Shown here: piece after piece, positions 26,892-40,555 of the stretch
How positions within the stretch are numbered: position 1 is the stretch's first letter
Layout: every line of letters starts with the position of its first letter
Assembly (NCBI GenBank): GCA_023250955.1
Contig: JAHEZQ010000029.1
Location: forward strand, 1-54,054
Reading direction: 5' to 3'
Origin: Melioribacter sp.
GTDB taxonomy: Bacteria > Bacteroidota > Ignavibacteria > Ignavibacteriales > Melioribacteraceae
DNA length: 54,054 nt
The notes under the pieces: model-generated
What the model was told of the DNA's origin: nothing
What the model saw: only the letters and a program-made list of their open reading frames with translations
Database searches by the model: none
Program-made: the position numbers and the translations under genes

Positions 26892-29051
26892 TCATTTTTT
26901 AGCTATCATTTGTAAAATTCTCTCCGGTGTCATTGGCAATCTATTTAATCTGATTCCAAGTTTATTGTAAATTGCATTTCCTATTGCAGCACCAACTGTA
27001 ATGATAGCAGGTTCACCTCCACCTTGCGGCTGTTCATTCTTCTTATCCAGAATAACACTTTCTATTTTAGGCAACCATGAAAATTTTGGAATTTCATAAG
27101 TATCATAATTTTTATTTAAGATCTCCCCATTACGAAATTTTACTTCTTCTGTTAATGCATAACCTAGTCCCATCATAATGCATCCCTCCATTTGAATAGT
27201 GGCACCTTCGGGATTTATAACAAGTCCCATATTCTGGGCACAAACAACTCGATTCACTTTAACATTTCCGCTTTTTGTATCCACATCTACTTCAACAATC
27301 ATAGCCACGTAAGTCCCTGCATCAGTTCCACATGCAATACCATAACCTTTTCCACTCGGATTCTTTTGAAATTTTTTCCATACGAATTTATTTCCAGCAA
27401 CTTCTAATACTTCAATCATTTTTTTATCTGTTAAATGTTTCATCCTGAATTCATACGGATCTAAACCCGCTTTGGCAGCCAATATATCAATCTGGCATTC
27501 CCTTGCAAATGTATTTGTATTATTACCTGGTGCCCGCCAAGGACCAGTTGCAAATGGATGACTTGCAACCGTACTATTTCGATTGACACCAAAAGATTTT
27601 GTATTTGTGTTAGGAATATTATAAAAATGTGCTGCACCCCGCTCCCCCGCAAAATAAACATTGTAATCCCAAAAACTAATTTCATTGTTATCATTTAAAC
27701 CGGATTTAATTTTTACAATTGCAGCTGGATGAAATGAATCGTAATAAAATTCTTCTTTGCGTGTATATGCTACCATAACTGGTTTTCCGGTTATTTTAGC
27801 AAGGCGGGCTGCATCAATAATTTGAAGATTAGTTGTCTTTCCACCAAAACCACCGCCAACATATGGTGTTATAACACGCACATTTTCAGACGCAATACTT
27901 AGCGCCCTAGCAACTTCTTCTTTGGCAGTAAACGGATTTTGAGTAGAAGCCCAAACAGTTACTTTATTTCCGTCAATTTTTACGACAGCAGTATGAGGTT
28001 CAATTGGCGAATGTGCAACATAACTATCATAGTACGTTTCATTAATTATTACTTTAGATTTTTGTTCTCCGTTTTTAATATCACCTTGTTGAGTAACAGT
28101 TCTACCCGGGGCTGCAACTTCTAGAAAATGATCATAAATACTTTCATTATTTAAAGTGGAATCAGAAAAGCTGAATTTTGCTTTAATTTTTTCCAACGCT
28201 TTTTCTGCTATGTCCGGATATTTATGAAGTACAGCTACAAGATCGCCATCATGCACAACAACTACATCACTCATTTTTTTCACTTCTGATAAATCAACAT
28301 CAATAAGTTTTGACCCATGTGCAGGCGGTCTTAACACTTTCGCATATAACATATCGGGAAGCTGCATATCACCGGTAAACTTTGCCTTACCAGTAACTTT
28401 CTCAATAGCATCTACTCTCGTTATAGACTTATTAATAATCTTGAATTCGGACGGATCTTTTATTTTTGGTTTGTCTTTTATATGCCGTTCTATCTTTTTT
28501 CCTTTTGTAAGTTCTGCATAAGAAATTTTATTCTTACGATTTAACTTCTGATACACAACACCTTTTTCAACGGTTAATTTATCAACTGGAATTTTCAATT
28601 TTTCGGAAGCTAATTCTAACAAAACATTTCTTGCTTCTGCTGCTGCTGCTCTTAACGGCGGCCCAAAAAATCTTGTGCTCATAGAACCAAACGTTCCCAT
28701 ATCCCACGGGCATAAATCAGTATCGCCCATAATCATTTGAACAGAATCAAGAGTTACATCCAATTCATCGGCAAGCATTTGTGCAAGCGAAGTAATTATT
28801 CCTTGCCCCATTTCAATCTTGCCGGTAAAACACGTGACTTTACCCATTTCATCTATTCTTAAGAATGCATTGAAGTCAGTTGGTAACTCTCCTCTTCTTC
28901 TCTGTTCTTGCTGAACATAACCTAAGGTATCACCAACAGTAAAAAGTATAAATAATCCTCCACCAAGAAGTTTTATAAATTCTCTTCTATCAACTTCGAA
29001 CGGGGCTTTTATATCTTGGAAATCCAAACCTAAGTAATTATCATTTTTCAT
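26892..29051 (-). CDS. Molybdenum hydroxylase large subunit (xanthine dehydrogenase/isoquinoline oxidoreductase family)
   Basis: This 719-residue subunit binds the molybdopterin cofactor and hydroxylates an aldehyde or N-heterocycle. The N terminus has RREFIK plus a hydrophobic stretch (about 22-43), a Tat-like export signal seen in IorB-type subunits. Landmarks are GQGIITSLAQMLADEL (about 84), GGGFGGKT (Moco region, about 408) and GGGEPAIITVGAAIGNA (about 680) holding the catalytic Glu. The gene overlaps the 2Fe-2S gene by four bases (ATGA) with GGAGGT in the preceding codons. No FAD subunit is present, so the pair probably passes electrons to a cytochrome, as IorAB. Substrate unknown. Confidence 0.9.
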   Translation of the reverse strand: MKNDNYLGLDFQDIKAPFEVDRREFIKLLGGGLFILFTVGDTLGYVQQEQRRRGELPTDFNAFLRIDEMGKVTCFTGKIEMGQGIITSLAQMLADELDVTLDSVQMIMGDTDLCPWDMGTFGSMSTRFFGPPLRAAAAEARNVLLELASEKLKIPVDKLTVEKGVVYQKLNRKNKISYAELTKGKKIERHIKDKPKIKDPSEFKIINKSITRVDAIEKVTGKAKFTGDMQLPDMLYAKVLRPPAHGSKLIDVDLSEVKKMSDVVVVHDGDLVAVLHKYPDIAEKALEKIKAKFSFSDSTLNNESIYDHFLEVAAPGRTVTQQGDIKNGEQKSKVIINETYYDSYVAHSPIEPHTAVVKIDGNKVTVWASTQNPFTAKEEVARALSIASENVRVITPYVGGGFGGKTTNLQIIDAARLAKITGKPVMVAYTRKEEFYYDSFHPAAIVKIKSGLNDNNEISFWDYNVYFAGERGAAHFYNIPNTNTKSFGVNRNSTVASHPFATGPWRAPGNNTNTFARECQIDILAAKAGLDPYEFRMKHLTDKKMIEVLEVAGNKFVWKKFQKNPSGKGYGIACGTDAGTYVAMIVEVDVDTKSGNVKVNRVVCAQNMGLVINPEGATIQMEGCIMMGLGYALTEEVKFRNGEILNKNYDTYEIPKFSWLPKIESVILDKKNEQPQGGGEPAIITVGAAIGNAIYNKLGIRLNRLPMTPERILQMIAKK

Positions 29052-29524
29052 TTCATACCTCCTACTTCTTTCGATGCTGTTTGAATAGCTTCAACAATTC
29101 TTTTATGAGCGCTGCATCGGCAGAAATTGTCATCCATTTCTTTTACTATTTCTTCGTAGGTCGGGTTTGGTTTTTTCTTTAATAAACCGTAGGCATTCAT
29201 AATCATTCCGGGTGTGCAGTAACCGCATTGAAGGGCATCTTTTTCTGCAAAAGTTTTTTGTATAGGATGCAGTTTACCTTTTTTCATTAATCCTTCAATC
29301 GTAAGCACTTCTTTCCCTTTAACATTTTTAATTGCAATACTGCAAGATCGCTCAGCTATATTATTAATGAGAACAGTACAAGCACCGCAAAACCCTTCTC
29401 CGCATCCGTACTTAGTACCGGTTAATCCGAAGTCGGTTCTAAGAACCCATAACAACATTCTTTCACTGTCTACGTTTACTTTAACTGCTTTACCGTTTAG
29501 TTTGAATTTGATGAGCTCAGGCAT
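29048..29524 (-). CDS. (2Fe-2S)-binding subunit of molybdenum hydroxylase
   Basis: The 158-residue electron-transfer subunit has the plant-type ferredoxin cluster YGCGEGFCGACTVLIN with its distal Cys in ERSCSIA, and the second, XDH-type helical cluster CGYCTPGM ... DDNFCRCSAHKRIV. I chose the ATG at 29524, because AAGGAG lies 6 bases upstream and a longer version (29560) would add 12 residues with no ribosome-binding sequence. Its stop overlaps the large-subunit start by ATGA, so the two are made together. Relays electrons from the Mo centre. Confidence 0.92.
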   Translation of the reverse strand: MPELIKFKLNGKAVKVNVDSERMLLWVLRTDFGLTGTKYGCGEGFCGACTVLINNIAERSCSIAIKNVKGKEVLTIEGLMKKGKLHPIQKTFAEKDALQCGYCTPGMIMNAYGLLKKKPNPTYEEIVKEMDDNFCRCSAHKRIVEAIQTASKEVGGMK

Positions 29525-29679
29525 GATGAACTCCTTGTGAATTATTATTAGTTGAAACATCTATACGTAAAATATTGAATGTAATTTGCCGAATTCTAAA
29601 ATAAAATCAATCAAAAAAATTAAGTGGCCTTATTATTAAAGCATGGAATGTATTATTATGAAAGAGGTTGAGCAAAAAA

Positions 29680-31032
29680 TTATTTCAGCAAAATCATTTT
29701 CTTGGTTTGAATAAACTCCCCTGTTTGAAGCCTATAAAAATAAACACCGCTTGGTAATAAACTGTTATGAATATTCCATGTTGAATAATGACTACCCGCT
29801 TGCTGATAATCATTTACAAGTACTGCAACTTCATTTCCCAATACATCGTAAATTTTGAGAGTAACAAAACTGCTTACTGGTAATTCATAATTTATAATTG
29901 TACTTGGATTAAATGGATTCGGGTAATTTTGGAATAGTTCATACTCTGTTGGTAATACTTTGTTCTTAGAATCAATATCTAATAACAAAGATGGTATATA
30001 TTTGAAATTACTTATAATCAACTCAGCTTCGTTTAGATTTTTTGGAGCTAATCCGGACATCAACCAAAAATTAATACGTGGTTTCATTTGGTTGGGAACA
30101 GGAATGCTTAAACCTTTGTAAATCCACTCTTTAATTAATTGACCAGAAACCAAATAACTTTGAAATTTTAAGTTCCCTTTTGTCCATGTGAATTTATGAA
30201 TTGATTGTTGACCTTGGAGGTTTAACGAAAAAGATGTTGAGTTTATTGGGGATGCAGGTTGGACAACATACCACCCTGCGTTACTGCCAGCATCACCCCA
30301 TCTTGAAAATTCAATATCAATTTCTTTTGTATCGTTCTCATAAATAAATAATCCTACAACAATATTAGGATCATAAAGTTCAGTATCACTTGAAACAGAA
30401 AAAGAGTATTCTCCATATCCCATAGTATCCTGTGCTGTAATACTTGAACAATACCAATTTGCACCAATCTTTCTAATAGCGAGGTGCAGTTTTCCGGAAT
30501 TATCAATCCAGACACTTTTTATTCCGTTAAACCAATTATTCGGTCCCGGTCCGCTAAATCCTTTACTTATATTCCATTTCAAACCGGAAAAATCTATTGT
30601 GGGAATTCGTGTTTCATTGATCGTTGTAGTAAAACTTCTTGTCGTAGACCAATTACTTGGGCCATCAGCATTCCAAGCTTTTACTCGCCAATAATAAATA
30701 GTTCCTTCTAACAACGAGGGATTCACAATTATTGATGTACCGCTTATTCCGCTTTGATTATAAATGGTACTATTAAAAGAAGAAACAGTAGAAATTTGAA
30801 CTTGATAAGAAGTGGCGCCGGATGATGATCTCCAACTTAATTGAGGTGTTGTTGCAACTTCTGTTGCAGAATTAGAAGGTGATAATAGAACTGGCGGCAA
30901 TGGAATTGAGATCACTTCTGTTTTCTTTAATGGAAAAATTGGGCTCTGAGTTTGCGCATAATAAAATAACGATGAACCTGAAACAAATAGAACAATATTT
31001 GTTACAATAAATAATTTTTTAATGCCCATCAT
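29680..31032 (-). CDS. GH16-like secreted protein with fibronectin III domain and T9SS sorting domain
   Basis: The 450-residue product has a signal peptide (about 1-27), a fibronectin type III unit at about 48-137 (PPVLLSPSNSATEVATTPQLSW; YYWRVKAWNADGPSNWST), and a jelly-roll region at about 145-355. There KEIDIEFSRWGD holds the ExDxE arrangement of GH16 glucanases, flanked by DTMGYGEYSFSVS and FTWTKGNLKFQS. The C-terminal sorting domain starts at about 368 (ELFQNYPNPFNPSTIINYEL). The ATG directly follows the stop of the propeller gene (TAAATG), so translation is coupled. A polysaccharide-cleaving role is inferred from the motif only. Confidence 0.72.
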   Translation of the reverse strand: MMGIKKLFIVTNIVLFVSGSSLFYYAQTQSPIFPLKKTEVISIPLPPVLLSPSNSATEVATTPQLSWRSSSGATSYQVQISTVSSFNSTIYNQSGISGTSIIVNPSLLEGTIYYWRVKAWNADGPSNWSTTRSFTTTINETRIPTIDFSGLKWNISKGFSGPGPNNWFNGIKSVWIDNSGKLHLAIRKIGANWYCSSITAQDTMGYGEYSFSVSSDTELYDPNIVVGLFIYENDTKEIDIEFSRWGDAGSNAGWYVVQPASPINSTSFSLNLQGQQSIHKFTWTKGNLKFQSYLVSGQLIKEWIYKGLSIPVPNQMKPRINFWLMSGLAPKNLNEAELIISNFKYIPSLLLDIDSKNKVLPTEYELFQNYPNPFNPSTIINYELPVSSFVTLKIYDVLGNEVAVLVNDYQQAGSHYSTWNIHNSLLPSGVYFYRLQTGEFIQTKKMILLK

Positions 31033-33987
31033 TTATTTCGATTTCCATTTAGACCAGGTATTCCCGAAACTTTTTTCGGTTTCATTGAATGCTGAAATAA
31101 TTTGAGAAGTTGGAGGCATATCGCTCTGCTGCAAAAGATTTTGCAAAGAAGAAAATGTTCTCATATACCTCGAGAGTTCTTTTCCGATATCTGAAGACTT
31201 ATCATTCTTCTTTTCAGCAATTTCTTTTAATGCATTTCTAATTTTTAGAATGTTCTTATAAGATTTAAAACTTAAATCATGCTGAAGCTGTAAATCTTTA
31301 ATTCCCGTTTTTACTCTAGGATCCATAATTATATTAAAAGTTTGAGTAAATACTTTCCCATCAACAGTTAGTCTAACAGTATATGATCCGGGCATTACAA
31401 ATGGTGATGAAGGCTGCGGTGCAGTATTATTATAGACAGCAGACATCGGATAAGACGGAGGAACGTTTAGAGGTGTATATCTCATATCCCACATAAATCT
31501 GTGTGAACCCGCTTCTGCCGAAAGAATCTGTTGAGGACGGATCCAGTAAAGCGGAATATTTAAATCCGGAATTTTATATAAAGTATCTTTATCAGAGTAT
31601 GTTCGAATTATTGTTCCCTTTGAATCTAAAATTTCCAGACTAATATTATTTGCTTTAGCATTTAGATAATAGTTTATTATAGCACCTTCCGGCGGATTTT
31701 GTCCAGCAGGTTCTTCTTGCGGAAGAGGTGTATCAGTATTCATATTCCATCTAACACGGTATGCATTCTGGGGCTTAAACAAAATTACTTTCAATGATTT
31801 TGATTCTTCACTGAGTTGACGCAGCGGTGTTATATCATCCAATATCCAAAAACTTCTTCCGTGAGTTGCAATAACAAGATCATCATCTTTAATTATTAAA
31901 TCCCTAATTGAAGTTGCCGGCATATTTAATCTTAACGATTGCCAGTTTTCGCCGTCATCAATAGAGAAATAAACTGTGGTTTCACTTCCGGCAAATAATA
32001 ATCCTTTTCTAATTGGATCCTCTTTTACAACATTAATGGGAGTATTAGGCAGTCCGTTTACAATTTCTTTCCAGGTTTTGCCGCTATCATTCGTTCTATA
32101 AATATGGGGGTGCATATCATCCAACCGGATACGGTTCACAGCAGCATAAGCAATATTAACATCAGTGTGGCTTGCATCCATCAAAGAAACTTTAGACCAA
32201 CTTGTAATTTCCGGTGGAGTAACATTTTTCCAAGTTTTTCCACCGTCTTTTGTAATATGAATTAAACCATCATCCGTGCCGCACCAGATAGTATTTATAT
32301 CAACATACGAAGGAGCAACAGTATAAATAACTCCTCGTCTCGGCATTTTTTTCATTTCATCTTTTGTATAAATGCCAACACTTGCCGATACATCCCAATT
32401 TTCTCTTGATAAATCTGGGCTGATAATTTCCCAATTGTTTCCACCATCTAAAGTTTGAAATAAAACATTTCCGGCATAGTATAATGTTTTATTATCAACC
32501 GGATTGAATAAAATTGGAGCGGTTCTAATAAAACGATACTTCCCACCGCGACCTATCTCAGGCGAAATATTTTGTGTTTGTCCGGTTCGTTTATCATACT
32601 TTGAAATTTTTCCACCGAAAATAATATTCGGGTCATTCGGATCGGCAACAACGTAACCGTATTCTTCAGCTCCAACTGGGTGCCATTCACGAAAAGTTAT
32701 TTGTCCGTCATTTCCGCGCGAAGCAACTCCAACCGAACCGCTTTCCTGTTGTCCGCTATAAACGTTATAAGGGAAATCATTATCTGCACTCACATGGTAG
32801 AATTGTGCCGTCGGCTGATTGTACCAGCTTGAAAAAGTTTCACCACCATTCACCGTTATTATAGCACCTTGATCGCTTGCGATCAATATGATATTACTGT
32901 TATCTGGATTGATCCAAATGCGGTGATAATCATCTCCGCCCGGCGCACCGCGGAATCCACTCCATGTTTTTCCTCCATCAATACTTTTCCACACTACTAT
33001 ATCAGCAGAGTAAACAATATCAGGATTAAAAGGATCGACTTTTACCTCAGCAAAATCATCACCTCTTCCCCAAAGTCTTCCATCAGGGTTTATATTTGTC
33101 CATGATTCACAGGCGTCATCGCTTCTATAAATGCCGCCGTATTTTCCAGCATCAACTGTTGCATACATTCTATTAGAATTAGAAGGTGCAATGCAAAAAC
33201 CGATTCTCCCTAAACCTTGAAGAGTTGTCGGTAATCCTTTAGTTAATTTTTTCCAGGTCGAACCGCCATCGGTAGATTTGAATAATCCACTTTCAGTTCC
33301 TCTCCATTCACCGTTTTCCCAAGGACCTTGTCTGCCTGCCCAAAGAGTGGCATATACAATATTATTATTGTTCGGATCAATTGTTACTTGAATAGCACCG
33401 GTATTCTCATCTTTATATAAAACTCTTTCCCATGATTTTCCACCATCTAAAGTTCTGTAAACTCCGCGTTCTGTATTAGGTCCATAAGGATGACCTAAAG
33501 CTGCAACAAAAACACGATTCTCATTTTTTGAATCTATAGATAATCCACCAATTTGTTGAGCATCTTTTAATCCCAAGTTTGTCCAAGTTTTACCTGCATC
33601 AGTCGATTTATATATTCCATCACCAACAGAAAGATCGGGACGCTGAACCCCTTCTCCGCACCCGACATAAATTACATTTGGATTTGAAGGTGCAACGACA
33701 ATATCACCAATTGATCCTGTCGGCTGGTCATCAAAAATAGGAATCCATGTTCTTCCAAAATCACTTGTCTTCCAAACTCCACCGTTATTCACTCCGATAT
33801 AAAAAACATTCGGTTGCTGGCGAACTCCAACAGCTCCTATGGTTCTGCCTCCGCGGTGAGGACCTATCATACGCCACTTCATTGAATCATAATATTGTTG
33901 TTCGATGGTTTGCGCGTTGAGAATTTGAAAGAACAAAAAGCACAAGAGTAGGCTAGTTAGATATTTTATAATTTGGAATTTTTTCAT
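31033..33987 (-). CDS. Large secreted Asp-box (BNR/VPS10-like) propeller protein
   Basis: The 984-residue product starts with a signal peptide (about 1-25, ending LNAQ) and continues with many Asp-box strands such as KTSDFGRTW, KSTDAGKTW, RTLDGGKSW, KSTDGGSTW, KSIDGGKTW and QTLDGGNNW, predicting two stacked or one large multi-bladed propeller over about 35-720. The C-terminal third (about 730-984) is beta-rich, with a charged helical tail. Such proteins are annotated as glycosyl hydrolase/sortilin-like, but no catalytic residues were recognised. It abuts the GH16-like gene with no gap and lies 47 bases after the permease gene. Role in polysaccharide capture is inference. Confidence 0.85.
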   Translation of the reverse strand: MKKFQIIKYLTSLLLCFLFFQILNAQTIEQQYYDSMKWRMIGPHRGGRTIGAVGVRQQPNVFYIGVNNGGVWKTSDFGRTWIPIFDDQPTGSIGDIVVAPSNPNVIYVGCGEGVQRPDLSVGDGIYKSTDAGKTWTNLGLKDAQQIGGLSIDSKNENRVFVAALGHPYGPNTERGVYRTLDGGKSWERVLYKDENTGAIQVTIDPNNNNIVYATLWAGRQGPWENGEWRGTESGLFKSTDGGSTWKKLTKGLPTTLQGLGRIGFCIAPSNSNRMYATVDAGKYGGIYRSDDACESWTNINPDGRLWGRGDDFAEVKVDPFNPDIVYSADIVVWKSIDGGKTWSGFRGAPGGDDYHRIWINPDNSNIILIASDQGAIITVNGGETFSSWYNQPTAQFYHVSADNDFPYNVYSGQQESGSVGVASRGNDGQITFREWHPVGAEEYGYVVADPNDPNIIFGGKISKYDKRTGQTQNISPEIGRGGKYRFIRTAPILFNPVDNKTLYYAGNVLFQTLDGGNNWEIISPDLSRENWDVSASVGIYTKDEMKKMPRRGVIYTVAPSYVDINTIWCGTDDGLIHITKDGGKTWKNVTPPEITSWSKVSLMDASHTDVNIAYAAVNRIRLDDMHPHIYRTNDSGKTWKEIVNGLPNTPINVVKEDPIRKGLLFAGSETTVYFSIDDGENWQSLRLNMPATSIRDLIIKDDDLVIATHGRSFWILDDITPLRQLSEESKSLKVILFKPQNAYRVRWNMNTDTPLPQEEPAGQNPPEGAIINYYLNAKANNISLEILDSKGTIIRTYSDKDTLYKIPDLNIPLYWIRPQQILSAEAGSHRFMWDMRYTPLNVPPSYPMSAVYNNTAPQPSSPFVMPGSYTVRLTVDGKVFTQTFNIIMDPRVKTGIKDLQLQHDLSFKSYKNILKIRNALKEIAEKKNDKSSDIGKELSRYMRTFSSLQNLLQQSDMPPTSQIISAFNETEKSFGNTWSKWKSK

Positions 33988-34034: not shown

Positions 34035-35252
34035 TTATTTTATTTTATATCCTTCAACAGCATAGTAAAAAATAAAAACAAATAATGGTACCGGGGTTAA
34101 AAATCCTATTGCCATTGTGCTGTTATCGGCAATCCAACCCATAACCGGTGGGAATAATGCTCCTCCCACAATTGACATCACAATAAAAGATGATGCTCTT
34201 TTAGTATTTGGACCAAGATCTTTAATTCCGAGAGCAAAGATAGTAGGAAACATTATTGACATGAAAAAGAAAACTAAGTAGAGTGCAATTACCGAGATCC
34301 AACTTATTCCAAAACTGACGACCGGCAATAGTAATAAACAAAATGCTGAATAAACAGCGAGTAATTTGGTTGGTTTAATAAAACTCATAATGTAACTTCC
34401 AGTCATGCGTCCGGTCATAAAAAGAATAAATCCGACAGATAGAAAGTAAGGTGCGTTAGCTTTTTCAAAATGAGGATATTGTTTTTCATCTGTTATGAAA
34501 TTAATTAAATAACTAAAAATTCCGGTTTGTGCAGCCACGTAAGCAAACTGAGCAATAACACCTAAAACAAAATGTCGGTTTTTTATGAGAGGCTTTAAAG
34601 TTTCAGAATTACTCTTTTCATTTGATATCTCTTCTTCTGTGATTTCAGGTAATTTTGTCTTCATAAACATTAATGCAATTATAAAAACTACTAACCCAAT
34701 TATCAGATAAGGAAGCATTAGAGAATTTAGTTTCTCCCCTTCTTTCGCAGTAACATCACCATAAATATAGATCCCTATTAATGGTCCAATTGTCCAAGCA
34801 AGTCCATTAAAACTTTGGGATAAATTAATTCTTCTTTCAGCAGTTTCATTGGGACCAAGTTTTGTTGTATAAGGATTAGCAGCTGTTTCCAAAGTAGCAA
34901 GGCCACATCCTATTACGAAAAGACATACTAAAAAGATCCAGAATGATTGAAGTGATGTTGTACCCGCTACTAAAAAAGCTCCACTTGAGAAAAGCAGTAG
35001 TCCAAAAATTATTCCTTTTTTATAACCAAAACGCTTCATAAAATACCCTGCAGGAAGTGCCATCGAGAAATAGGCAAAATAAAGCGCAAATTGAATTAAC
35101 CCTGACTCCGCTTTGGATATTTTTAAGATTATTTGAAAATGTTTATTCAGTACATCAAGCATTCCATGAGCAATACCCCATAGAAAGAAAAGAGTAGTTA
35201 TTAATATGAAGGGAATGGAATATTCTTGAGTTGTAATTGTAATTTTTTTCAT
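34035..35252 (-). CDS. MFS sugar permease of the FucP (L-fucose:H+ symporter) type
   Basis: The 405-residue product shows about twelve membrane helices and FucP-type landmarks: FFLWGIAHGMLDVLNKHFQ near the N terminus, AYFSMALPAGYFMKRFGYKKG after helix 2, and the LETAANPYTTKLG stretch after helix 4 that is characteristic of the FGHS family. The charged cytoplasmic loop (TKLPEITEEEISNEKS) separates the halves. It imports a hexose or deoxyhexose with protons. Neighbouring mutarotase and sugar-kinase genes favour fucose, rhamnose or a related sugar, but the substrate is not fixed by sequence alone. Confidence 0.88.
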   Translation of the reverse strand: MKKITITTQEYSIPFILITTLFFLWGIAHGMLDVLNKHFQIILKISKAESGLIQFALYFAYFSMALPAGYFMKRFGYKKGIIFGLLLFSSGAFLVAGTTSLQSFWIFLVCLFVIGCGLATLETAANPYTTKLGPNETAERRINLSQSFNGLAWTIGPLIGIYIYGDVTAKEGEKLNSLMLPYLIIGLVVFIIALMFMKTKLPEITEEEISNEKSNSETLKPLIKNRHFVLGVIAQFAYVAAQTGIFSYLINFITDEKQYPHFEKANAPYFLSVGFILFMTGRMTGSYIMSFIKPTKLLAVYSAFCLLLLPVVSFGISWISVIALYLVFFFMSIMFPTIFALGIKDLGPNTKRASSFIVMSIVGGALFPPVMGWIADNSTMAIGFLTPVPLFVFIFYYAVEGYKIK

Positions 35253-35318: not shown

Positions 35319-35726
35319 CTATTGAATGTCTAACTCTTTCAAGTAACCATTCTCAGCCGAATAATTTTTATTCTGATCAAGTTCATAGATCCTTTCAAGC
35401 AAATGCCATTTTTCTTTCGCAGAAGAATCTGATGAACTCTTTTGAAATTTAGAAACAAATGTTTCCCATTCTGCTTGTCGGCGTAATGAACCGAGTTTTG
35501 TCATAGCTTTTTCATGATTGAAATCTTCTTGGGTATCCATTATCATAAATAGCGTCGTTCCGGAGAGATATATTTCCATATCAATAATTCCGACTTCATG
35601 CATTCCCTCTTCAACTTCCTTCCAAACATTTCCCATTGAATGGACTTTTTTATATTCTGCTATCAAATTTGGATCATCGTTTAGTTGCAATGATTTACAA
35701 TATCTCTTAAATTTTTTGTTTCTCAT
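35319..35726 (-). CDS. RhaM-family (L-rhamnose/L-fucose-type) mutarotase
   Basis: The 135-residue protein belongs to the ferredoxin-fold mutarotases that interconvert alpha and beta anomers of L-rhamnose or related sugars. Visible are Y25 and H29 in AEYKKVHSMGNVW, then IDMEIYLSGTTLFMIMDTQEDF. The long C-terminal extension (about 105-135) after the WETFVSKFQ region is Ser/Lys-rich and less conserved. AAGG precedes the ATG at 35726. It lies between the bifunctional kinase gene and the permease gene, consistent with uptake and channeling of the beta-sugar into the kinase. Confidence 0.86.
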   Translation of the reverse strand: MRNKKFKRYCKSLQLNDDPNLIAEYKKVHSMGNVWKEVEEGMHEVGIIDMEIYLSGTTLFMIMDTQEDFNHEKAMTKLGSLRRQAEWETFVSKFQKSSSDSSAKEKWHLLERIYELDQNKNYSAENGYLKELDIQ

Positions 35727-35761: not shown

Positions 35762-36907
35762 TCATAATGCGTTTCTTCTGATTTTGATTCTTATAGCTCC
35801 CTGAACTGGTCTATTAGAAACTAAAATAATATATCCCCCTCCTCCCGCACCGGATAGTTTCCAGCCGTGTGACTGATCCTTATACTTACTAATTGTCTTG
35901 AGGATAAATTCATCAACCATATTGGGAAACATTGCTATTTGAGCTTCAAAAGATTTAGTAAAATATTCACCGAATAGTTTTATATCTTTGTCTAAGATAG
36001 CATTCCAACAACTTTCAGCAGCATTTGCTAGTTTCTCAGCTCTAGAAGAGTCTATTTTTGTATTTTCCAAAACATCAAAACCACTTACTCTCGGTTCGAG
36101 TGTTACAAGGTAAAGATTTTCTTCTAGCCACTTAAGTATATTTTCATCATGAACAGAAGTTATTTTCTCTGGCCAGTATTCCCCCGTGTAATCGAGTTTA
36201 TTTAATCCTGGCATCACAATCCCGATAGAATCTTGAGAACCAGCAATTATTTTTGTTCCCGGAGGATTTTCATAACTGAATAGAATTTTTGCTAATTGTT
36301 CTTTGTCTCCAGATGGTATAGCGGTTTTCCATAGTTCAATAGCGCGTCTTCTTGTGCTAGAAGACATTCCGCTTCTTTCATTAAATTCTAAAGTCGGTTC
36401 AATTGGAATAGTAAGAACCGGACCGGGTGCATATTTACCTACATATGGCTGATCTAACCAGCCACCAGCCAAATCAATTCTAAACGGAATAGTGCACTCT
36501 TGTCTAAGAGCTGTAGTAGATCTGACAGGAAGATTACCATAGGGAATTCTTTTCAATATCAAATATTTGATCCCAAGCTCTTTGCACAGATCCTCTTTAG
36601 CGAGTATGTTACCATCTTCATTAACTATAAAATAATCAGGATTAATTACTTTTATTTCTTCCAGAAAATCCATTATGCCCGAACCGGTGTTGATTAGAAC
36701 TTTCTTGACAGCAGAGAGAGAATCAAGCATGTATTTTCTTTCATCTTGATTATTTATTGGAAATCTTCCTTTTAGTCCATGCACAGTTTTATCAGCACCC
36801 AGACCAACATACACATCTCCATATGTTGCTGCTTCGTTTAAGAATGCAACATGCCCACTGTGTAATAGATCAAAACACCCAGTAACAAAAACTTTTTTTC
36901 TATCCAT
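35762..36907 (-). CDS. Bifunctional nucleotidylyltransferase / GHMP kinase
   Basis: The 381-residue product is a fusion. Residues 1-135 form a TagD-type nucleotidylyltransferase with HSGH (16-19) and RSTTAL (129-134). Residues 140-381 form a GHMP sugar kinase: PFRIDLAGGWLDQP (141-154), phosphate loop GMSSST (180-185) and SGAGGGGYIILVS (352-364). The kinase half (about 240 residues) is shorter than usual. AAAGGA precedes the ATG. The neighbouring mutarotase and permease suggest the fusion phosphorylates an imported deoxysugar at C1 and activates it as an NDP-sugar; HddA-like kinases provide the closest motif match. Nucleotide and sugar are not determined. Confidence 0.82.
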   Translation of the reverse strand: MDRKKVFVTGCFDLLHSGHVAFLNEAATYGDVYVGLGADKTVHGLKGRFPINNQDERKYMLDSLSAVKKVLINTGSGIMDFLEEIKVINPDYFIVNEDGNILAKEDLCKELGIKYLILKRIPYGNLPVRSTTALRQECTIPFRIDLAGGWLDQPYVGKYAPGPVLTIPIEPTLEFNERSGMSSSTRRRAIELWKTAIPSGDKEQLAKILFSYENPPGTKIIAGSQDSIGIVMPGLNKLDYTGEYWPEKITSVHDENILKWLEENLYLVTLEPRVSGFDVLENTKIDSSRAEKLANAAESCWNAILDKDIKLFGEYFTKSFEAQIAMFPNMVDEFILKTISKYKDQSHGWKLSGAGGGGYIILVSNRPVQGAIRIKIRRNAL

Positions 36908-37240: not shown

Positions 37241-40200
37241 CTATTTGATCAATAACATTTTTCTTAACTGCATAAAACAACCGGCAGAGATTCTATAAAT
37301 ATATATCCCACTGGCTAAATTACTCGCATCAAAATTTACTTCGTAAAATCCAGCATATTGAAAATTGTTTACGAGTTTTGTTATTTCTGCTCCAATTATA
37401 TTATAAACAGTTATAATGACATAACTTTCCCTAGGCAATCTGTATCTAATCTCTGTAGTTGGATTAAAGGGATTCGGATAGTTTTGTTCAAGTTTATATT
37501 CATCAGGAATACCTAAACTTAGATTTTTAACATGGGTAATAGCCGCATCTTGTTTGACCTCAACACTTTTTGGGCTATCAGTAATGCCCTCGGCAGTGAT
37601 GATTATTGTTCCAACTCTTGAAACATTGTTATTTTGATCATAGCTAAAATTAATGATTCCATCGTTTATGCCGCTTGCTAAGCCAGTAATTTTTATCCAA
37701 AATTTATCTGATATTGCGATCCAATTCATTGTTCCGCCACCGGAATTATATACATTTATTGATGCAATACCTGCAATCGGACTTACATGAAGAAAATCCG
37801 GGGTAACTGTTAAGATTGGCTGCATCATGAAATTTGCAACCAAATTTTTAGAGTACGTAATTGTAAATGTATAGGTAACTGAAGTTGATACTTCAACATT
37901 TCCGCTTGTCCAATTAACAAATGTATATCCGTTTCTTGGAGTTGCAATCACACTAATCAAACTACCGTAATTAAAAGTACCGCTTCCACTTGTATTGCCA
38001 CCTTCGGCAGGATTGGAGTTTGTTGTCACAGTACACTGTACGATTGCAAAATTAGCTGTTAATAATCTATTGGAATTAATGACGAAGCTATAACTTGGAT
38101 CGTTTGAAACTACTATTCCTCCTTCCGTCCAATTTGCAAAAACATATCCAGTATTTGGAATTGCAGTAACTGTTACAGAATTTCCATGATAGAAAATTCC
38201 ACCACCATTGGTTGTTCCTCCATTTGGTGAATTTGATATTAAAGTAACTCTATATGTAGGAGTTATCTTTATAATACGATTTACTTCATTACTTTCTTGA
38301 TAAGGGTCAGCGACTTTGAAACTAACTGTTCTTGGTAGGATACTTGGGTTACTACTAATATTATGGTATGTGACACTTCTTAATGCAGTCTCAAAATTTG
38401 ATAATGAAAGACCTAAACTCAAAACTAAAACACCTTGAGCGGGGTACCATGTTCCAATAACAGTATTTTGTTTCGTAAAACTGAGAATATCTTCACCGAT
38501 TTGGTAGTTGTTAGAAATTTTAACCACTGCATATTGTAAGTTTGGAATTCCATTGTCAGTTATGGTTAGTCCAGTTGCTATTATTGTAGGATTATCACCT
38601 TGCTTATATTCTAAAAGAGCCGGTTCTACGCCTGCTAGAACAGGCGGTGTGTTCCCTAAGTTTACTTCTCTGCTTGCAACAAAACTGTCAGACGTGCCGT
38701 CACTCACTTTGAAACTGATTGTTCTAGCGTATAAGTTCGAAATGACACCTTCAATATGTTGATAAGTAACGCTTCTTAGCGCAGCTTGATAATTAGCTAT
38801 TGAAGATACACCAGTTAGTATCATGGTTCCATTTGAAGCATCCCACATTCCTATGATTCCATTTGAATTCGTAAAATTCAAGACATCATTTCCATTTTGG
38901 TAGTGAGCAAATATTTTTATTTCTGCACTAACCAAGTTTACATTATCAATATCGCTTAATGATATAGTCTGTGTAATTTCGACTGGTGAACTTCCAGTTG
39001 TAAAAACCAGTTGGGTATCTTCCAATGATGTTATCACAGGTGGATTGTTAACTCCAACTACATTCAAGTTTCTTGACACAAGATTGCTATTTAATGATCC
39101 ATCATTTACTGTAATTCCTACTGTTCTCAATAAGGTACTTGGATTTTGAGATGTATTCTGATAAGTAATACTCCTTAAAGCAGTTTGGTAATTTGCTACT
39201 GAAGTTGTCCCACTAAGAGTTAATGTTCCAGTAGTCGCATCCCAACTCCCAGTAATGCCGTTTTGATTTGTGAAACCGAGTAGGTCTTCTCCGTTTTGAT
39301 AATTGTTTATTATCTGAATAACACCACTTAAGAGGTTAGCTTCTATCGCAACAACAGTTGTTGTGCTTGTTATCTGAGTTGCAGCATCTCCTTCATTATA
39401 ATTTAATGTTCCAGACTCGATTGCGGCTAATAAGATTGCCGTTGGTTGAAATGCATAATTGGCACTAATAACTGTAGCTGCGCTTACTGTCCCCGCTGAA
39501 ACAGTAATATTCGTTTCAGTTAACGATTGTTGAACATTTGGTGTTGCACCTGTCACTACCAAATCAATGTCTGTCACAACAAAGAAATTTGTAGGAGTAC
39601 TCGATAACATTTCCGAAAATCCGCCTATTTGAATTTCAGTAGCTGTTATAGTTATAACAGCACCTGCTATTTGCATGTTGTCCCCTGAAGTTGCATAAGT
39701 ATTATCCAATGACTTATAAAGTTTTATATTGTTAAATTTGCCAACAGTTGTTGATGATGTCTGTACATTAATTGCTGTGAAATTGGGAGTTCCCTCAGAA
39801 ATAAGTGAAAATCCTATTATTGCTTTATTAACATTTCCACCTGATAAAGGTGATGTAGCAATACCATTTGTGAGCTGAACTGTAGTAGTTGTAATTGGAC
39901 TGACTGTTCCGCCAATTGCTAGACCATTAACTCCACTGGCACTGGAGTAGAAACCCCAACCGCCTGTCGCAGTTTGTCCGCTTGCATAGTACCGCAGAGT
40001 AATAGTAGTTCCATTCGTAATATTTTGCAAAGCACTAATACCTGACAAGTCAATTTGAGTCATGCTTAAAGAAGTAGTTTGAACAGGGGAACCAATAAGA
40101 GTAAAAGATGATCCATCTAAACTATAAGCAAACTGAGAAGTAACGCCAGGCCCCATATAATATGATGCTGTCCCAGCAAATTTTGCATCTATTGTTGAAA

Positions 40201-40498
40201 GCGAAACTTTATATCCTGTAGCTGCACATATCGTTATTTGAAAATAATCAGTATTGGCTATGGATATTCCTTCATTCTTGAATCCAGTAGTCCTGAAAGA
40301 ATTTGCACCGCTACTGGCTGATGCACCAGATCCACGTGTTATGTTATTTGTACCAGATCCACTAACTAAATTTGGATTAAAAATAGTGGCCGTTGAAGTA
40401 GTAACATTATTTTGGCCGGTAAAGTCCCATGCAGCAATCTGTCCCCAAAGCAAACTATTAAGCAAAAACAAAATTGAAACAGTTAACGTTTTTTTCAT
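37241..40498 (-). CDS. Giant multidomain surface protein with cadherin-like, InlB-like, BACON and T9SS sorting domains
   Basis: After a signal peptide (about 1-20) comes a beta-rich region (about 20-360). Three cadherin-like repeats follow (about 365-485, 490-615, 620-745), each with a NYQNGED(L/V)LxFTNxNGIxGxWD core and a LRSxTYQNxS close. Two InlB-type B-repeats (about 748-895, with GYVFANW and GYTFVNW), a BACON domain (about 897-985) and a sorting domain (about 1005-1085, KLEQNYPNPFNPTTEI) finish it. I chose the ATG at 40498, with GGGGGT upstream; a TTG 12 bases earlier is possible. It is probably exported by T9SS as an adhesin or glycan-binding protein. The binding partner is unknown. Confidence 0.87.
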   Translation of the reverse strand: MKKTLTVSILFLLNSLLWGQIAAWDFTGQNNVTTSTATIFNPNLVSGSGTNNITRGSGASASSGANSFRTTGFKNEGISIANTDYFQITICAATGYKVSLSTIDAKFAGTASYYMGPGVTSQFAYSLDGSSFTLIGSPVQTTSLSMTQIDLSGISALQNITNGTTITLRYYASGQTATGGWGFYSSASGVNGLAIGGTVSPITTTTVQLTNGIATSPLSGGNVNKAIIGFSLISEGTPNFTAINVQTSSTTVGKFNNIKLYKSLDNTYATSGDNMQIAGAVITITATEIQIGGFSEMLSSTPTNFFVVTDIDLVVTGATPNVQQSLTETNITVSAGTVSAATVISANYAFQPTAILLAAIESGTLNYNEGDAATQITSTTTVVAIEANLLSGVIQIINNYQNGEDLLGFTNQNGITGSWDATTGTLTLSGTTSVANYQTALRSITYQNTSQNPSTLLRTVGITVNDGSLNSNLVSRNLNVVGVNNPPVITSLEDTQLVFTTGSSPVEITQTISLSDIDNVNLVSAEIKIFAHYQNGNDVLNFTNSNGIIGMWDASNGTMILTGVSSIANYQAALRSVTYQHIEGVISNLYARTISFKVSDGTSDSFVASREVNLGNTPPVLAGVEPALLEYKQGDNPTIIATGLTITDNGIPNLQYAVVKISNNYQIGEDILSFTKQNTVIGTWYPAQGVLVLSLGLSLSNFETALRSVTYHNISSNPSILPRTVSFKVADPYQESNEVNRIIKITPTYRVTLISNSPNGGTTNGGGIFYHGNSVTVTAIPNTGYVFANWTEGGIVVSNDPSYSFVINSNRLLTANFAIVQCTVTTNSNPAEGGNTSGSGTFNYGSLISVIATPRNGYTFVNWTSGNVEVSTSVTYTFTITYSKNLVANFMMQPILTVTPDFLHVSPIAGIASINVYNSGGGTMNWIAISDKFWIKITGLASGINDGIINFSYDQNNNVSRVGTIIITAEGITDSPKSVEVKQDAAITHVKNLSLGIPDEYKLEQNYPNPFNPTTEIRYRLPRESYVIITVYNIIGAEITKLVNNFQYAGFYEVNFDASNLASGIYIYRISAGCFMQLRKMLLIK

Positions 40499-40555
40499 AA
40501 CTACCCCCAATAAAAAAATATATTTTAGAATACATTTATTTTCTTATTTATCTTT

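Follow-up and report, generated by a model that had tools for sequence, protein, structure and literature searches.

What does a protein make that joins a nucleotidylyltransferase to a sugar kinase and is encoded beside genes for sugar mutarotation and L-fucose uptake? The question is raised by the gene at 35762-36907 of the window, i.e. the whole stretch of 54,054 nucleotides analyzed here (Melioribacter sp., contig JAHEZQ010000029.1 of assembly GCA_023250955.1; genome label G000). The encoded fusion is subsequently designated protein T, and the copy at this locus the window copy.

Domain architecture and neighbourhood of protein T

The T gene, the two genes following it and the motifs of both protein halves are located as follows:

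35762..36907, minus strand: bifunctional protein T, 381 aa, ATG start
36851..36862, minus strand: HSGH motif of the nucleotidylyltransferase, residues 16-19; H16, G18 and H19 in 41/41 aligned sequences
36506..36523, minus strand: RSTTAL, last motif of the transferase half, residues 129-134; R129 in 41/41
36446..36487, minus strand: GHMP motif 1, PFRIDLAGGWLDQP, residues 141-154; equivalents of FKP Arg592, Trp599 and Asp601
36350..36376, minus strand: phosphate loop (motif 2), RSGMSSSTR, residues 178-186; placed by motif and spacing
36230..36241, minus strand: GSQD, residues 223-226; equivalents of FKP Gln761 and the catalytic base Asp762
35834..35854, minus strand: SGAGGGG, GHMP motif 3, residues 352-358; Ala354 corresponds to FKP Ala900
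35319..35726, minus strand: RhaM-family (PF05336) sugar mutarotase, 35 bp after T
34035..35252, minus strand: FucP-type L-fucose:H+ symporter, 66 bp after the RhaM-family gene; TIGR00885, 317.3 vs. 280.4 bits

By sequence and predicted fold, residues 1-135 of T represent an HxGH nucleotidylyltransferase and residues 136-381 a compact GHMP-type sugar kinase; the plus-strand reading of the same interval contains 19 stops, the first-pass annotation having named no strand. The transferase half exceeded the cut-offs of PF01467 (44.3 vs. 21 bits) and TIGR00125 (48.3 vs. 27.7 bits), and the curated models nearest to it are those of adenylyl- and cytidylyltransferases, rfaE_dom_II scoring 62 bits against a curated cut-off of 181.5. 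The C-terminal half matches the C-terminus of the FKP kinase in sequence and the GHMP fold in structure. The FKP model NF009948 gave 48.3 bits on T (curated cut-off 721), with the best stretch at residues 300-375. Pfam model GHMP_kinases_N (PF00288) matched none of the 41 T sequences at E <= 0.01 and, when searched against the own genome, left T unmatched at E <= 1, while GHMP_kinases_C (PF08544) matched 26 of the 41 at E <= 0.01, the window protein not being among them. A curated full-length model of the T family does not exist.

An AlphaFold model of T built from the 41 sequences (mean pLDDT 87, pTM 0.81) was compared with known structures by VIA-align. In this predicted model the GHMP fold spans residues 136-379, with Z values of 15-22 to the GHMP kinases compared. 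The top fold match of the kinase half was the heptokinase WcbL (4usk; Z 21.7, rmsd 3.1, 239 aligned residues), and FKP fucokinase (9iip) gave Z 19.9, rmsd 3.0 and 229 aligned residues. The transferase half superimposed on glycerol-3-phosphate cytidylyltransferase (1coz) with Z 17.6 and rmsd 2.0 over 125 residues. Both halves are kept in all 41 aligned sequences (the window copy and 40 others), as is the HxGH motif (41/41). The HSGH/RSTTAL transferase fused to a kinase with GMSSST (residues 180-185, inside the phosphate loop) and SGAGGGG, as described in the first-pass annotation, is thus confirmed: the fusion and both domains are real and do not reflect chance motif matches. A search of the open-licence literature, covering titles and abstract starts, returned no description of this two-domain protein, which does not imply that it is undescribed.

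The same annotation had placed T in a FucP/RhaM cluster, and both neighbours were recovered by their family models at the positions listed above. The RhaM-family protein scored 89.7 vs. 23.4 bits with PF05336 and 17.8 bits with the L-rhamnose mutarotase model TIGR02625 (curated cut-off 99.6). Further along the minus strand lie a gene for a BNR/sortilin-like protein (31033-33987, 47 bp after FucP) and, at a distance of 0 bp from it, a gene for a T9SS sorting-domain protein (29680-31032); the transcript of the T cluster may extend past FucP into these two genes. Two genes at 26892-29560 (minus strand) overlap by 4 bp and encode a xanthine dehydrogenase-type molybdenum subunit and a [2Fe-2S] subunit; homologues of both are found near T in L062, L063, L065 and L083, of which L062, L063 and L083 represent one dereplicated locus. 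Upstream of T, the interval 37241-40510 (minus strand) encodes a large protein that combines InlB-type repeats with a T9SS sorting domain.

Catalytic residues and the adenine pocket of the kinase half

As reference for individual residues we used FKP of B. fragilis, whose residue roles are taken from an excerpt of PMC11982464. FKP residues Arg592, Trp599 and Asp601 correspond to Arg143, Trp150 and Asp152 of T, and Gln761, Asp762 and Ser719 to Gln225, Asp226 and Ser184, all six being present in 41/41 sequences. The equivalent of Glu751, Glu213, is Glu in 38 of the 41 and Asp in the other three, and the position of Thr602 is occupied by Gln in all 41. The first-pass annotation had named a kinase half lacking catalytic residues as a refuting finding; the sugar and base residues are there in every sequence. 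The adenine-pocket segment is absent, a shortening of the kinase half that the annotation did not mention. The assignment of Ser184 was set by motif and spacing and is our own judgement, taken against two automatic aligners: MAFFT and hhalign paired T AIPSG (residues 196-200) with FKP AVPKG. We rejected this placement because residues 199-201 vary and because the Ser-to-Gln spacing (41 in T; 42 in FKP as numbered in PMC11982464) agrees with RSGMSSST.

In FKP, the adenine of ATP has been modelled between Ile669, Leu722, Met645, Asp644 and Pro666 (excerpt of PMC11982464). Arg592 and Ser719 are 127 positions apart in FKP and their equivalents in T 41, and therefore about 86 residues are absent from T between motifs 1 and 2. 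Asp644, Met645, Pro666 and Ile669 all fall inside this absent segment, and the position of Leu722, given the phosphate-loop placement by motif and spacing, is R, N, K or H in 55/55 T sequences. Judging from these alignments, the pocket that normally accepts the adenine of ATP seems to be lost from the kinase half. Chance motifs and an assembly deletion were considered and rejected, as a 10-residue stretch replaces the missing segment with equal length in 55/55 homologues. How a GHMP kinase would act without this pocket is a testable question.

Arg178 and Arg186, which flank the phosphate loop, are invariant (55/55). In a small control, motif 2 was found by pattern in three of six loci (L182, L147 and L148), none with Arg at either site; the patterns matched nothing in L183, L184 and L185. 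As the adenine pocket is apparently gone and invariant arginines stand at the phosphate loop, one may speculate, although we think it improbable, that the kinase half represents a GHMP kinase reduced to a minimum, independent of ATP and running on the PPi released by its own transferase, with the net reaction L-sugar + GTP -> GDP-L-sugar + phosphate, and that the subfamily II proteins described below open a Leloir-type route from L-galactose through GDP-mannose. If so, T would, to our knowledge, provide the first case of PPi use by a GHMP kinase as well as of GTP use by an HxGH transferase. PPi use by T is proposed purely on the analogy of the PPi-dependent ribokinase-family enzyme TM0415, which has a partly occluded ATP pocket and added basic residues at the phosphate site (excerpt of PMC5931981).

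Distribution, gene context and a subfamily linked to GDP-mannose 3,5-epimerase

Scanning contigs for T yielded 48 loci, to which searches of relatives, the phylum and the class added more. After dereplication there were 61 matches, mostly in Bacteroidota, with single finds in Verrucomicrobiota, Kiritimatiellota and Armatimonadota; within a class sample, 18 of 294 genomes had a T match at E <= 1e-30. Among the partial matches, L085 and L079, both from the same MAG, probably represent two fragments of a single gene, L086 is matched over the transferase half only and L082 stops at a contig end.

Neighbours were counted within 7 kb of T for the 61 dereplicated matches (664 kb of flank in total) by blast to single reference proteins of 12 kinds; the counts are rough. 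RhaM was found 25 times, FucP 15 times and FucI twice; GME (GDP-mannose 3,5-epimerase), GMD and GFS were found eight, six and four times, respectively. LacI followed with six, GH95 with five, SSF and aldolase II with four each, and GH28 and FGGY kinase with three each; apart from the references themselves, the GH95, GH28 and SSF matches reach no more than 23-29% identity. The figure for RhaM is a lower bound, as a RhaM-cluster ORF directly after T in L071 escaped the count. At least one of RhaM, FucP, FucI, GMD, GFS and GME accompanied 36 of the 61 matches and none the other 25. Among the 38 matches with at least 12 kb of flank, RhaM was present in 17 and FucP in 11; 24 had at least one of the six genes and 14 had none, and short contigs therefore do not explain these 14. 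A control set of 15 regions, totalling 170 kb and including six of less than 2.2 kb, gave no match to any of the 12 kinds. The FucP/RhaM context anticipated for other genomes is hence common, but not universal.

In three other genomes (L045, L046 and L049) the RhaM, transferase and GHMP domains are encoded in a single ORF, the GHMP C-terminal model reaching its cut-off in L049 only. L034/L044 carries the row DeoR, FGGY kinase, aldolase, FucI, RhaM, T and FucP, apparently a complete fucose operon, with annotations partly drawn from cluster representatives. T proteins with 67% and 72% identity to the window copy are encoded in FucI operons (L036 and L034, respectively). GMD and GFS both lie near T in L116/L039, L121, L050 and L075, with GMD of L050 on the strand opposite to T. 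The row GME-T-GMD-GFS of L121 (G130:C8), in which all genes run in one direction, links an entry by salvage with the de novo route to GDP-fucose. GMD and GFS are found in polysaccharide clusters too, which counts against the GDP-L-fucose reading.

The own genome encodes one T of each of two subfamilies, the window copy and the copy on G000:C61 being 45% identical. Searches of this genome detected no FKP except for a weak match of T itself, and no FucI. For imported L-fucose, the missing FucI-family isomerase is in keeping with salvage, as far as the isomerase route is concerned. One GMD scored over its cut-off, and a GDP-mannose pyrophosphorylase is probably encoded as well (TIGR01479, 348 bits; cut-off 372.95). 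GT10 fucosyltransferase was not matched in the own genome by a search that matched no control either. In the class sample, FKP exceeded its cut-off in 1 of 294 genomes and T was present in 18 of 294, with none listed for both; the two samples are the same kind of draw and presumably the same genomes. We discarded the idea of an FKP/T anti-correlation, as these genomes are too few to mean anything.

The tree of T was calculated from 55 of the 61 matches, leaving out the partial L079, L082, L085 and L086 as well as L097 and L130. Five sequences, designated subfamily II, are separated from the rest by a branch supported at 100/100. GME lies directly upstream of T in 6/6 subfamily II loci, with 16-34 bp between the match ends. 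The epimerase of L033 matches Arabidopsis GME with 322 bits and, in an alignment to 2c59, keeps its residues Ser143, Cys145, Tyr174, Lys178 and Lys217. Ser, Cys, Tyr and Lys together with the acid/base Lys are the catalytic residues of GME, which catalyses a reversible reaction whose equilibrium disfavours ascorbate synthesis (both from an excerpt of PMC8787198). Within the class sample, GME was matched in 31 of 294 genomes (E <= 1e-50). Five of these (G000, G004, G517, G542 and G545) have a best GME 76-100% identical to that of L033, located next to a subfamily II T, and two (G130 and G523) have one of about 46% identity to it next to a subfamily I T. No T match at E <= 1e-30 was obtained for 21 of the remaining 24 genomes, and GME and T are on separate contigs in the other three (G496, G528 and G569). 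Positions that are conserved within either subfamily distinguish I from II, namely D145 vs. C and E170 vs. W.

On G000:C61 (L033; 6468-16589), GH95, LacI, GME, T, a RhaM-family gene, an SSF transporter and GH28 form an operon-like row that looks like a locus for utilisation of L-galactose or L-fucose. GH95 comprises L-fucosidases and L-galactosidases among others. The row suggests release, uptake and activation of L-galactose and its conversion to GDP-mannose; a published L-galactose pathway runs by oxidation instead (excerpt of PMC12632266). Two subfamily II genes, on G517:C105 (L107) and G542:C100 (L108), contain one in-frame stop each, which could be decay or assembly error; the GME match beside the G542 copy is split into two pieces.

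Proposed reaction, alternatives and known systems

T is a real, conserved enzyme family whose functional kind is known and whose architecture is new. With architecture, predicted fold, conserved residues and gene contexts established as above, we consider it somewhat more probably right than wrong that T salvages L-galacto-sugars as an independent counterpart of FKP, the window copy turning L-fucose into GDP-L-fucose and the sister branch turning L-galactose into GDP-L-galactose and further into GDP-mannose. The sugar class of the substrate is fairly well supported; GDP as nucleotide carrier is what we infer from the neighbouring genes, and the individual sugar, the direction and the phosphate donor of the reaction are putative. 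L-fucose would be taken up by FucP, the RhaM-family protein would deliver the correct anomer, the GHMP half would phosphorylate C1 and the HxGH half would add the nucleotide, giving an NDP-L-fucose, most likely GDP-L-fucose. Subfamily II would perform equal reactions on L-galactose, and the epimerase encoded upstream would convert GDP-L-galactose to GDP-mannose in a Leloir-like entry. We know of no GTP-using HxGH nucleotidylyltransferase, which counts against this explanation, as do the missing adenine-pocket segment and the 25 matches without any of the six neighbour genes. FKP itself uses L-galactose and D-arabinose weakly (excerpt of PMC11982464). The first-pass proposal that an NDP-deoxysugar is made from an imported sugar gains from the import, mutarotation and anomeric-kinase context and from the L-fucose genes in some genomes; a deoxysugar in every member is not established because subfamily II behind GME points to L-galactose.

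The reactions and the kind of sugar could be as proposed, but with ATP or CTP as the nucleotide, resulting in ADP- or CDP-L-fucose, a rare activated sugar. We think this unlikely, albeit worth reckoning with: the transferase half is closest to the ATP-using domain II of HldE/RfaE and to the CTP-using cytidylyltransferases of glycerol-3-phosphate, ethanolamine-phosphate and HEP, but its scores remain far under the curated cut-offs, and the nucleotide-sugar enzymes recurring beside T (GMD, GFS and GME) act on GDP-sugars. As to the sugar, it is rather unlikely that L-galactose, D-arabinose or some other sugar carried by FucP, rather than L-fucose, is the main substrate of the window copy. The FucP encoded beside it exceeds its curated cut-off, two relatives of 67% and 72% identity are found in FucI operons, and the residues distinguishing subfamilies I and II are expected to differ if their substrates do; these points have to be set against the acceptance of L-galactose and D-arabinose by FKP, the subfamily I relatives L117 (70%) and L121 (68%) that adjoin GME, and the failure of the RhaM-family protein to reach the L-rhamnose mutarotase cut-off.

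Two further alternatives concern the kinase half or the whole enzyme. We doubt that the kinase half is degenerate, or serves in substrate binding or regulation instead of as an ATP kinase, and that the sugar-1-phosphate comes from elsewhere: although most of the modelled adenine pocket is missing and GHMP_kinases_N finds none of the 41 sequences, the catalytic Asp, the Arg, the Mg-binding Ser, the glycine-rich motif 3 and the sugar contacts are invariant or nearly so. A role as HldE-related enzyme making ADP-heptose for lipopolysaccharide, for which the likeness to RfaE domain II and the WcbL fold match would speak, is very improbable indeed. Trp150 agrees with FKP and not with heptokinases, motif 1 of which (WcbL/HddA) we take to lack an equivalent Trp. 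We rejected the heptose enzyme on the grounds of the missed curated cut-offs, the fucose and galactose genes recurring near T and a separate HldE-type pair in the own genome (ORFs of L003, by our own reading rather than a family scan).

If salvage of L-galacto-sugars is right, T would be a fucose-salvage enzyme of less than half the size of FKP in scattered Bacteroidota (and the single finds in the other three phyla), in genomes for which no FKP was detected, would lead L-galactose to central metabolism through GDP-mannose and would offer compact tools for making GDP-L-sugars.

FKP is built in the same order, transferase half before GHMP kinase half, and shares the L-fucose context and the sugar-contact and catalytic residues of the kinase. 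In agreement with the first-pass annotation, T is nonetheless an alternative architecture, as the nucleotide-transfer half differs in fold: FKP, at ~950 aa, uses a sugar-nucleotide pyrophosphorylase fold with a beta-helix, whereas T, at 381 aa, uses the HxGH (PF01467) fold and is missing the adenine-pocket segment of the kinase. The heptose kinase/ADP-heptose synthase HldE (RfaE) likewise fuses an HxGH nucleotidylyltransferase to a sugar kinase, but its kinase is of ribokinase type and comes first, while that of T is of GHMP type and comes second. The heptose 7-phosphate kinases WcbL and HddA share the GHMP fold and anomeric phosphorylation with the kinase half, but are stand-alone proteins of ~340 aa. 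With TM0415, T has in common a partly closed ATP pocket and additional basic residues at the phosphate site; the kinase folds are unrelated, and PPi use is only hypothetical for T. A zebrafish glucuronokinase/putative pyrophosphorylase reportedly combines sugar kinase and pyrophosphorylase for salvage as well, for another sugar and in an animal. Finally, the plant L-galactose route (GME pathway) comprises the same interconversion of GDP-L-galactose and GDP-mannose as subfamily II, which here would likely proceed towards GDP-mannose, starting from salvaged L-galactose.
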